Shown piece after piece: positions 32,708-36,783 of a DNA stretch of 36,783 bases. The position numbers were made by a program, and so were the translations under genes. The DNA is taken from the NCBI RefSeq assembly GCF_028276765.1, contig NZ_JAPYVU010000013.1, positions 1 through 36,783 on the forward strand. The letters run 5' to 3'. The stretch is from Sulfurihydrogenibium sp. GTDB taxonomy: Bacteria > Aquificota > Aquificia > Aquificales > Hydrogenothermaceae. A model generated the notes under the pieces. It searched no databases. It worked only from the letters and a program-made list of their open reading frames with translations, and was not told the origin of the DNA. Numbering within the stretch: the stretch's first letter is position 1; the number at the start of each line of letters is the position of its first letter.

Positions 32708-33424
32708 ATGATGAAGAGAGAAAGAGAAAGGATAAATATAGATAAAATAGAGACTCTAAAAGAATTAGACCTATTTAAAGAGCTTAAAGAAGAAGAGTTG
32801 AAGAATATAGAAAAGTTCTTTGTTGCAAAGAAATTTAAGAAAGGTGAATACATATTCTATGAAGGAGATAAAGAGCCGGGTATATACTTTGTGATAGATG
32901 GAATAGTAAAGCTAATCAAAGAAACGAACGAAGGCAAAACTGTAATACTAAGACTTGCAACAAAAGGCGAGAGCTTCGGCTGGCTTGTTATGAAAGATAA
33001 CAGACCACCTGTTAATACTTATACAGCTCAAGCTTTAATTGATACAACAGTTTTATATATATCAAATCAAGATTTCTTAAAACTGCTTTTAATGTATCCT
33101 GCTTTAGCAGTAAGAATAACGTGCGAGCTTACTAAAAATATTCTTGAAGCATATGACAGACTTAAAAGCTTAGCTGTTGAAAAGGTAGAAGGAAGAATAG
33201 CAACGCTTATTCTTGAACTTGTTGACAAGATTGGAAAGAAAGAAGGCGATAACGTAGTAATAAATGCTCCAATAACAAGACAAGATATAGCAGAAATGGC
33301 AGGAACAACGGTAGAAACAGCAATTAGAGTAATAAGCAGATGGAAAAAAGAAGGAATATTAGACACAGAAAGGGGTAAAATAGAGATTTTTGATATAGAT
33401 TATCTTCAAGATTTGATTAGTTAA
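32708..33424 (+). CDS. Crp/Fnr-family transcriptional regulator
   Basis: A 238-residue regulator. The cyclic-nucleotide-binding-type beta barrel covers about 20-135 (FKKGEYIFYEGDKEPGIYF), followed by a dimer helix and a winged helix-turn-helix (ITRQDIAEMAGTTVETAIRV, about 188-208). There is no N-terminal cysteine set, so it is not an oxygen-sensing FNR with an iron-sulfur cluster. The cAMP-contact RS pair of CRP is not evident either. The effector is unknown. GGGGG lies just before the ATG. It may control its neighbours or respiratory genes, but no site was found. Confidence 0.88.
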   Translation: MMKRERERINIDKIETLKELDLFKELKEEELKNIEKFFVAKKFKKGEYIFYEGDKEPGIYFVIDGIVKLIKETNEGKTVILRLATKGESFGWLVMKDNRPPVNTYTAQALIDTTVLYISNQDFLKLLLMYPALAVRITCELTKNILEAYDRLKSLAVEKVEGRIATLILELVDKIGKKEGDNVVINAPITRQDIAEMAGTTVETAIRVISRWKKEGILDTERGKIEIFDIDYLQDLIS

Positions 33425-33452: not shown

Positions 33453-33779
33453 ATGAAAAACTTATTAAGAAAACTTTTAGCATTTGTGATAAGTTTTATT
33501 CTATTTTTTTCATTTCCGTCTTTTGCAAAAGGCGGTAGAGGTGGAAGCTTAGGTAAGATACACAAGGTTTATATTAGAGACAGAAACCCTGCACTCTCAC
33601 TCTATGAATTGTACAAAGATTCTACTTCTGGTTATGTTTTACTGGGTGTATTTGCTGTTTATTTCGTATTTAATATTGGACTTGCCGCATTCGTTCTTGC
33701 AAGAGAATTAATATCAGCAAAAATGCAAAATAATAATCAAAAAATAAATTCATCAGAAGATTTACATTTAAAAAAATAA
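33453..33779 (+). CDS. Small exported membrane protein, unknown function
   Basis: A 108-residue protein that I do not recognise. A signal-like segment (LLRKLLAFVISFILFFSFPS, then FAKGG) is followed by a Gly-rich stretch. One further membrane helix comes next (GYVLLGVFAVYFVFNIGLAA). The tail is polar and ends SSEDLHLKK. No Shine-Dalgarno is seen before the ATG. The stop TAA directly follows seven A residues (33770-33776), a slippery sequence; a -1 shift would lead straight into the next frame and a fused protein of about 320 residues. Confidence 0.6.
   Translation: MKNLLRKLLAFVISFILFFSFPSFAKGGRGGSLGKIHKVYIRDRNPALSLYELYKDSTSGYVLLGVFAVYFVFNIGLAAFVLARELISAKMQNNNQKINSSEDLHLKK
33770..33779 (+). 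other. Slippery A7 run directly before a stop codon
   Basis: In the frame of the 108-residue protein the codons read TTA AAA AAA TAA, so A-AAA-AAA is a canonical -1 slippery heptamer. After the shift the reading is TTA AAA AAA ATA AAT TTT, and it stays open to 34417. This could be programmed frameshifting, polymerase slippage, phase variation, or a mutation or sequence error in an A run. Confidence 0.4.
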
Positions 33780-33814
33780 ATTTTGCTGAACTAAGAGATG
33801 ATGAACCAATTACA

Positions 33815-34417
33815 GTGCTAAAAAATAATTTTAGCTTAATATCAATTTTTGCAAAATTATTATTATTTGTGTTTATTTTAGTTGCAGCAATTTCAATGAC
33901 AGCTATTACAATTTTTCTTATATACAAAATTAAAGAAGAGCCAACCTATTATGCTCACTACATTTATTTAATTTTTGGTATAATGGGAAGTTTAGTAAGT
34001 ATAGGTTTTTTAAATCTTTCTTTAACTCTCTTTAATTTGAAATACATCAAGGTTTACAAAAATAAAATCATTCAAAATGCTTTTATCAAATGGCTACCTC
34101 CTTTTAATAGAAGCATAAATTTAGATCAAAAAGATTTAAAGATAAAAATTTATATTACTTCTAAGAATGTCTATCATATTATATTTACAGATAACCTTTC
34201 ATTAGTTAGAAACCTCTTGCTTAGTTTATTTTCTTTCGATTTCTTTTATCCTAAGGTGATACATATTTTTTTTAATATTAAAACTAAGTTTTACAGTACT
34301 TGCTCCTCTAAAAATGAAGTATTGAGATTTATAAATTTTCTTTTAGAGAAAATAGAAAATACTGAAGATAGAGAAAAATTAGAAGAACTTAGACAGAAAA
34401 TATTGATGGCATTGTAA
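33815..34417 (+). CDS. Membrane protein of unknown function, possibly the second half of a fused gene
   Basis: A 200-residue reading from a GTG start. Two membrane helices occur near the N-terminus (IFAKLLLFVFILVAAISMTA; HYIYLIFGIMGSLVSIGFLN). A soluble, Lys/Phe-rich part follows, and a charged helix ends the protein (NTEDREKLEELRQKILMAL). I do not recognise the family. The GTG has no ribosome binding site. The frame is open upstream to 33737, and the codons before the GTG read like protein (INFAELRDDEPIT). I therefore suspect that translation normally arrives from the 108-residue ORF by a -1 shift, or that the gene is broken. Confidence 0.5.
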   Translation: MLKNNFSLISIFAKLLLFVFILVAAISMTAITIFLIYKIKEEPTYYAHYIYLIFGIMGSLVSIGFLNLSLTLFNLKYIKVYKNKIIQNAFIKWLPPFNRSINLDQKDLKIKIYITSKNVYHIIFTDNLSLVRNLLLSLFSFDFFYPKVIHIFFNIKTKFYSTCSSKNEVLRFINFLLEKIENTEDREKLEELRQKILMAL

Positions 34418-34433
34418 ATCAAGAACTAATTTT

Positions 34434-34590
34434 GAGACTGCCTCAAAAATCCACATTGTCATTCTGCAGCCGTGCGAAGAATCTCCTATTTTTCTTTTCA
34501 AGTCAAAAATCAAAAGAGGAGATTCTTCGGACTTACGTCCTCAGGAGGATGACGGATAAAGGTAAACTTGTGAAATTTTGGAACACTCTC
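34434..34590 (+). repeat. Palindromic MITE-like element, forward copy
   Basis: A 157-bp copy with the ends GAGACTGCCTCAAAAATCC and ATTTTGGAACACTCTC. The halves GTCATTCTGCAGCCGTGCG with AAGAATCTCC and GGAGATTCTTCGGACTTACG with TCCTCAGGAGGATGACGG pair extensively. It lies between the + strand membrane gene and the convergent molybdoenzyme gene. Confidence 0.82.
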
Positions 34591-34665: not shown

Positions 34666-36783
34666 TTAAGATTCAGACCCTGGCATTTTATAAGCTTCGT
34701 CTGCTAATGGAACCCATGGTCTTGGCATCCATTTTGGTCTTCTAAGTCCGCCCGGTCCTGGTGCTGGTCTTGTTAATTGATCTCTCCAAGCTTTGTAAAC
34801 TTCAAATGTTTTTTGAATATCTACAAATACATCACCTATTCTATCCTCTGGACCTGCTTTTTCTATTAATACCTTTTTGTGCCAGCAGTGCATACCGCTT
34901 ATTGGGTCTGGATTTGCTGGGAATACAGCGTTTTGGAATACTCCCGTTGTTCCTTTCCACCAGATCAATTCTGTATCTTTATTAAATTCTGGGAACTGCC
35001 ATGATTTGAATGGTTTTACACCCTCTTTTGTTCTCATAAAATACTTAGAGCCTTCGTTTTTAATATCAACAAGTACAGAACCTAATCTCATTACACCAAG
35101 CGGATGTTTAAATCCGTCTATTTTTACTTCGTTTACGAGTCTCCATCTTCCGTTGTGGTGCGAACATGCTACAACACCCGGTCTTGTTGCTTGGGTTGGA
35201 ACTGCCATTGCTACAAAGTATCCAGTTTTAATGCCTGTTAATGTATCTACAACCCAAACTTTTACAGCATCTCCTTTATTGATTCCAAGTCTTTTAGCAT
35301 CTTTTTCATAAATCCATAATGGGTTATGGTTTTGTCCTATTTCCATCAACCACTTTGCGTTAATACTTCTTGTGTGGATTAAGTATGAAAGTCTGTAAAT
35401 TGGGTTTAATACAAATGCATTCTCTTCCACAATGTAGTCGTGGTGCACTTGGCTAACGATATGGATCATTTTTTGTCTTTGTTCTTTATTTTTCGGATAG
35501 TATAAAACTGCATACTCAGGCCATTTCCAGTCTTTTAACGTTGGTGAGTAAAATTCTATGTGTCCAGAAGGAGTATGGAATCCTTGGAGAATTTTTCCAT
35601 CTTTGTATACGCCGATTGTATGCTTCTTGCCCTCTTCTTCTGCATAAACAATACCAAGCTCTTCATCTATCTTGATAGCAGATTTTGGAATTTCTTTTCC
35701 TTTATATTTGTAAACACCTTTTTCTTGGTCATAAGGCAATGGTCTTTCCATCACATAGTAGATGTTTGTCTCTTCTGTCCAAGCTCCCCTATCTCTCATG
35801 TATTCATATGGAGTTATACCAAGCTGTTTGCAGACTTCAGAAAGCTTAGGAAGTTTTGAGAACGCTGCATTGTAGTACTCTTCAATTGTAACCGGCTTTC
35901 CTGGATTTTGTTTTGATTCCCAGTATTTTCTTATTCCAAGGCTTCCGTCTGGGTCTATTGCAAATGCAAGATTGATGAAAAATTCATTTTCTTCCCAAAT
36001 TTCACCAAGTCCTACTTTTTTGTGTGCTTCCAATGTAGCTTTCGCCGGGTCGTTTGGCTTCCATCCCATCTTCATTAGTGCAACTCTTAAAACTGGCTGT
36101 CTAAATCCTGTCCATCTTTCAGGCTTTGTCTCTGAAGAATGCTGGTCGTGTCTTTCTCCGGCTAATCCCATTGGAAGTATATAATCACAGTAGAATGCTG
36201 TTTCAGCCCAGTTTGGAGACATATAAACTGTTAAACCAAATTTATTTTCATCTTTTAATGCTTCTACCCATCTAAACCCATCCGGGTTAATCCATACAGG
36301 GTTGTAAATTCTTGAAAACCATACCTCTACCTTATCCGGAATCTTTAATCCTTTTTCTTGCCATTTCTTTCTCCATTCATCATCCATCAAAAGATGTGGA
36401 TATATATAGCTAAGCTCATAAGAAGACAATGGCCATTCTGGTGGCCAGTGTAATTCGTTCCAAACTTTTACCGGGTCTGGTTTGTCTGCCATACAAGCAT
36501 CACCGCCTTTATCACCTACGTCTATAACATGCCAGTGGTGCCATCCTGTACCACCAACAGACCCAATAGAACCGGTAAACGTTAAAAGCATATTCATAGC
36601 TCTACCTACAACCCAACCACCTCTGTTTCCGGCTGCAGGACCTCTCCATTGGTAATTTGTAATAGCATTTCCTGCATAAACTACCATTTCGTAGAGTTTA
36701 TCAATCATTTCAACAGGTATTCTACATTCCTGCGCAGCCCATTCAAACGTGTAATCTTTATACATATCTTTTAAAAGCTCTAT
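34666..36783 (-). CDS. Molybdopterin (bis-MGD) oxidoreductase, catalytic subunit, C-terminal part
   Basis: The reading stays open to the right edge, with six more codons (IELLKD) before the internal Met at 36765, so the N-terminus lies outside. About 705 residues of a DMSO-reductase-family large subunit are seen. The opening (DYTFEWAAQECRIPVEMID), NRGGWVVGRAMNMLLTFTGS, GLAGERHDQHSSETKPERW and the C-terminal cofactor domain (VVACSHHNGRWRL) fit. The N-terminal iron-sulfur motif and active-site ligand are not in view. The substrate is therefore open; sulfur-compound or tetrathionate-type enzymes are plausible for this kind of organism. The tail is Pro-rich (RPAPGPGGLRRPKWMPRPW). Partner subunits would lie beyond the window or be absent. 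Confidence 0.88.
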   Translation of the reverse strand: MELLKDMYKDYTFEWAAQECRIPVEMIDKLYEMVVYAGNAITNYQWRGPAAGNRGGWVVGRAMNMLLTFTGSIGSVGGTGWHHWHVIDVGDKGGDACMADKPDPVKVWNELHWPPEWPLSSYELSYIYPHLLMDDEWRKKWQEKGLKIPDKVEVWFSRIYNPVWINPDGFRWVEALKDENKFGLTVYMSPNWAETAFYCDYILPMGLAGERHDQHSSETKPERWTGFRQPVLRVALMKMGWKPNDPAKATLEAHKKVGLGEIWEENEFFINLAFAIDPDGSLGIRKYWESKQNPGKPVTIEEYYNAAFSKLPKLSEVCKQLGITPYEYMRDRGAWTEETNIYYVMERPLPYDQEKGVYKYKGKEIPKSAIKIDEELGIVYAEEEGKKHTIGVYKDGKILQGFHTPSGHIEFYSPTLKDWKWPEYAVLYYPKNKEQRQKMIHIVSQVHHDYIVEENAFVLNPIYRLSYLIHTRSINAKWLMEIGQNHNPLWIYEKDAKRLGINKGDAVKVWVVDTLTGIKTGYFVAMAVPTQATRPGVVACSHHNGRWRLVNEVKIDGFKHPLGVMRLGSVLVDIKNEGSKYFMRTKEGVKPFKSWQFPEFNKDTELIWWKGTTGVFQNAVFPANPDPISGMHCWHKKVLIEKAGPEDRIGDVFVDIQKTFEVYKAWRDQLTRPAPGPGGLRRPKWMPRPWVPLADEAYKMPGSES

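Follow-up and report, generated by a model that had tools for sequence, protein, structure and literature searches.

The locus and its reading frames

We analyzed a stretch of DNA of 36,783 nucleotides (hereafter the window), which is contig C13 of a 1.75-Mb, 84-contig draft genome of Sulfurihydrogenibium sp. Near its end, two open reading frames, ORF1 and ORF2, lie between a regulator gene and a dispersed repeat:

32708..33424, plus strand: Crp/FNR-family regulator (crp), directly upstream, 28 bases before ORF1; it marks the conserved gene position
33453..33779, plus strand: ORF1, 108 aa, the 5' third of the gene, truncated at the TAA at 33777-33779; its alignment to residues 1-111 of P0001, the intact S. 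yellowstonense SS-5 protein, contains no internal stop
33770..33776, plus strand: run of seven A residues (A7) where the frame breaks; in the SS-5 orthologue there is one base more, A-G-AAAAAA
33776..34417, plus strand: the remaining two thirds of the gene (3' part), which continues in the -1 frame for 213 codons and a stop and has no usable start itself
33815..34417, plus strand: mechanical ORF2, taken from its listed GTG, which in the orthologue encodes a Val inside the protein
34431..34580, no strand assigned: abundant dispersed repeat, of which one copy lies here just past the gene

ORF1 encodes a signal-like segment and one predicted helix, and its last codons are TTA (33768-70) AAA AAA TAA (33777-79). 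The frame of ORF2 is -1 relative to ORF1 and stays open up to the TAA at 34415-34417. That TTA AAA AAA TAA closes the first frame and that the -1 frame leads into the second had been stated in a preliminary description of this DNA, and the coordinates confirm it. The first listed start of ORF2, GTG 33815, is in frame and lies 36 bases past the ORF1 stop. We looked for a purine-rich ribosome-binding site in the bases before it, CCAATTACA, and found none. From the break to this GTG there are 13 codons, which encode INFAELRDDEPIT, identical in the S. yellowstonense SS-5 protein. The earlier remarks that the second ORF lacks a convincing start or ribosome-binding site, and that it looks coding ahead of the GTG, thus both proved correct. 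Since INFAELRDDEPIT is coded identically in both genomes, ORF2 most likely never had a start of its own.

The dispersed repeat at 34431-34580 reads CATTCTGCAGCCG...GGAGATTCTTCGGACT...GGATGACGG, and blastn recovered 173 matches to it across 947 kb of the draft genome and 307 across that of a close relative, G004. Beyond the repeat, gene order differs from that of both SS-5 and G004. A molybdopterin oxidoreductase gene (DMSO/selenate-reductase-like) occupies 34666-36765 on the minus strand and reaches near the contig end, by which its N-terminus is probably cut off.

A single intact orthologue

Scanning GTDB contigs with ORF2 as the query returned one relative, in S. yellowstonense SS-5, which is 83% identical and sits in the same position behind crp. 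When the fused reading was compared with 41 related genomes, SS-5 was the only one to match besides the window's own genome, with a 326-codon open frame containing no stops. The SS-5 gene is a single uninterrupted ORF (L002:3626-4597) of 323 aa, and the -1-frame part of the window aligns to the remainder of P0001 over 211 codons. The test for a frameshifted gene therefore returned a homologue that is intact, in one frame and likewise located behind crp, and the alignment of orthologues that had been proposed as a check yielded a single protein.

Among 136 Aquificota genomes, the gene was present in two, the window's genome and S. yellowstonense; the single additional match in this search was weak and was judged spurious. 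We rejected weak protein matches to another genus of the family, which covered residues about 242-312 at E 5e-4 to 0.03: the best of them (L097) is antisense to a longer ORF on the opposite strand, and several others have stops inside.

The upstream crp is common to the genomes of the genus, with 78-98% protein identity. G004, whose crp is 98% identical, does not have the membrane gene; between its crp and the next gene, which is ResB-like (named by eye), lies a different, short intergenic region. This intergenic region (L007:2217-2508, 290 bases) holds a copy of the dispersed repeat in place of the membrane gene, indicating that a gain or loss of this gene took place within the genus. Because so few Aquificota genomes carry it and it is missing from so close a relative, its absence is tolerable.

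Coding constraint and protein features

Selection was estimated by NG86 from two sequences, the window copy and SS-5. The first part of the gene gave dN 0.138, dS 0.209 and omega 0.66, and the second part gave dN 0.079, dS 0.159 and omega 0.50; omega for the neighbouring crp was 0.08. Nonsynonymous change was depleted in the two parts pooled (one-sided Fisher p about 0.01), with values of 0.015 for the second part alone and 0.20 for the first. This depletion over the whole gene argues that it was a protein-coding unit and, on the pairwise comparison, the gene is protein-coding and weakly constrained.

Sequence searches of Pfam, NCBIfam and PDB recovered no family or relative for the membrane protein. 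An AlphaFold model of the intact orthologue, made without relatives, was poor (mean pLDDT 53.5); with low confidence, it suggests a signal-like N-terminal segment, one more helix, a hairpin of helices, and strands mixed with helices at the C-terminus.

Probable loss of one base at the A run

The junction reads CAT TTA AAA AAA TAA ATT TTG in the window and TAT TTA GAA AAA ATA AAT TTT GCT in SS-5. Relative to SS-5, the window is short of one base, a G at the 5' edge of the A6 run, and the loss of this G accounts for both the A7 and the early in-frame TAA. In the nucleotide alignment, this one base, at column 410 and at the A run, is the sole uncompensated gap within the gene whose length is not divisible by three. 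Elsewhere in the gene, gaps span 9, 6, 9, 3 and 3 bases, plus one compensated pair; the flanking non-coding DNA does contain one-base gaps against SS-5. The preliminary description had named a fused gene with another count of A residues as the observation that would overturn its reading, and SS-5 essentially presents it: one fused gene, with A-G-A6 at the tract. A fused orthologue that differs by one base at the tract points to a simple mutation or a sequencing error, and a plain one-base break in one membrane gene, from either cause, is very probably what the window contains.

We propose that there was one membrane-protein gene of about 320 codons, limited to the window's genome and its sister S. 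yellowstonense, and that it was interrupted when one base, the G in the GAA-AAA pair, was lost. The loss appears derived and recent, a polarity read from a single orthologue and not formally rooted. ORF1 alone would then specify a truncated and probably non-functional product. The most likely explanation is an ordinary frameshift by one base, of recent date, in a membrane gene that evolves fast and is restricted to this lineage.

Mutation versus sequencing error

Between the two origins of the break, we prefer a real mutation, which seems roughly twice as likely as an error in the draft sequence. Under the latter, the gene would be intact in the organism, and the base beside the A run would have been dropped during the sequencing or assembly of the 84-contig draft. 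We consider this less likely than not. Homopolymer edges are a common site of indel errors and the gap falls at such an edge; moreover, the window gene is intact apart from the break. However, the draft is not visibly error-prone. We surveyed 947 kb of this genome against the complete 1.84-Mb genome of G004, taking loss of the open frame as the criterion; this stricter definition was adopted because misassigned start codons and recurring transposase genes had muddied an earlier, looser survey. The fraction of orthologues truncated in this genome (8/690) was no higher than the fraction truncated in the finished G004 in the reverse direction (11/700).

Several breaks in both genomes fall at A-runs (A6-A8). 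Natural frameshifts at such runs are a normal background in the genus, and a lone one is to be expected. On contig C5 of the window's genome (L020:12340-13613), a gene is frameshifted relative to G004 by a base lost beside an A6, a lesion of the same kind, and contigs C14 (22383-23346, L155) and C3 (39813-40735, L143/L144) hold two further genes with A7-to-A8 and A7-to-A6 frameshifts relative to G004. A search of the literature on frameshifts in Sulfurihydrogenibium found nothing on this locus.

The window gene shares a single frame transition and an intact one-frame homologue with the singleton frameshifted genes, or hypothetical pseudogenes, of GeneTack (PMC3711429); like them, it is without a conserved shift site and is confined to one genus. 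We see no difference in kind; the window gene encodes a membrane protein that is restricted to its lineage and matches no Pfam or NCBIfam family. Singleton frameshifted genes validated by an intact homologue are expected to be mostly sequencing errors (PMC3711429). Judged by the GeneTack criteria, the window gene falls among pseudogenes or sequencing errors.

Slippage and other explanations

The base loss might itself have made a new slippery A7, on which slippage of the ribosome or RNA polymerase rescued the gene from the start and gave two products. If true, this would be a newly evolved recoding site, but we consider it improbable. Both halves are otherwise open, and the same picture would be expected were the full-length protein still made by slippage. 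Low-level slippage on the A7 could leak some full-length protein; we saw no sign of selection for it.

Programmed -1 ribosomal frameshifting, which the preliminary description had put forward, would yield two products, one truncated and the other fused, as happens with dnaX or the genes of IS elements. The heptamer A-AAA-AAA (33770-33776) has the phase that -1 re-pairing requires and lies directly before the 0-frame stop, as in dnaX and IS3-family frameshifting on A-AAA-AAA/G, and the -1 frame carries on the protein. Most X_XXZ_ZZN heptamers are shift-prone in E. coli, and bacterial tRNA-Lys(UUU) has been noted as highly shifty (PMC4066793). Unlike in dnaX and the IS3 family, however, the heptamer is not conserved: the only orthologue has neither heptamer nor stop, continues in one frame (TTA GAA AAA ATA) and needs no shift. 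Nor were stimulators found. Downstream RNA folding was no better than that of shuffled sequences (z -0.79 for 33780-33860 and +0.13 for 33700-33900, in a model that excludes pseudoknots), and the region 6-17 bases upstream, in ATTCATCAGAAGATTTACATTT, holds no Shine-Dalgarno-like stimulator (GAGG/GGAG/AGGA/GGNGG/AGGKG, defined in PMC4066793). Furthermore, A7 runs are commonplace, with 723 sense-strand runs of at least seven A residues in 777 ORFs (about 0.93 per ORF; the set comprises ORFs with 120 aa or more from 947 kb of the genome). The same 777 ORFs include 20 cases in which an ORF ends near a slippery heptamer and the -1 frame stays open beyond it for 30 codons or more. Programmed frameshifting is thus very improbable here; the earlier proposal correctly joined the two ORFs into one protein, but its mechanism is not supported, with the tract not conserved and the stimulators absent.

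Phase variation, in which the length of the A run would differ between cells and switch the gene on or off, had also been suggested and gains no support. The window shares with poly-A phase-variable surface-protein genes a homopolymer at a frame break in a membrane-protein gene, and one A gained within the A7 would shift the frame. In contrast to those genes, the run is short, seven A residues being common in this genome, and the orthologue has no conserved length-variable repeat: its tract, A-G-A6, is interrupted by a G and differs from the A7 by a single base. We regard such switching as highly unlikely.

Least probable of all are two separate genes, the second starting by coupling or reinitiation at GTG 33815 in the right frame 36 bases after the ORF1 stop, since this GTG is without a ribosome-binding site, the 13 residues before it are coding and the same in the orthologue, and there it encodes an internal valine of one protein; the one-frame orthologue already largely refutes this reading.

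Implications for the genus

A one-base break of this kind has little importance beyond annotation, where the two ORFs would be recorded as one disrupted gene and not as a case of recoding. Natural frameshifts regularly arise at A6-A8 runs in this AT-rich genus, and an A-run followed by a stop is therefore a poor marker for programmed frameshifting in Sulfurihydrogenibium.
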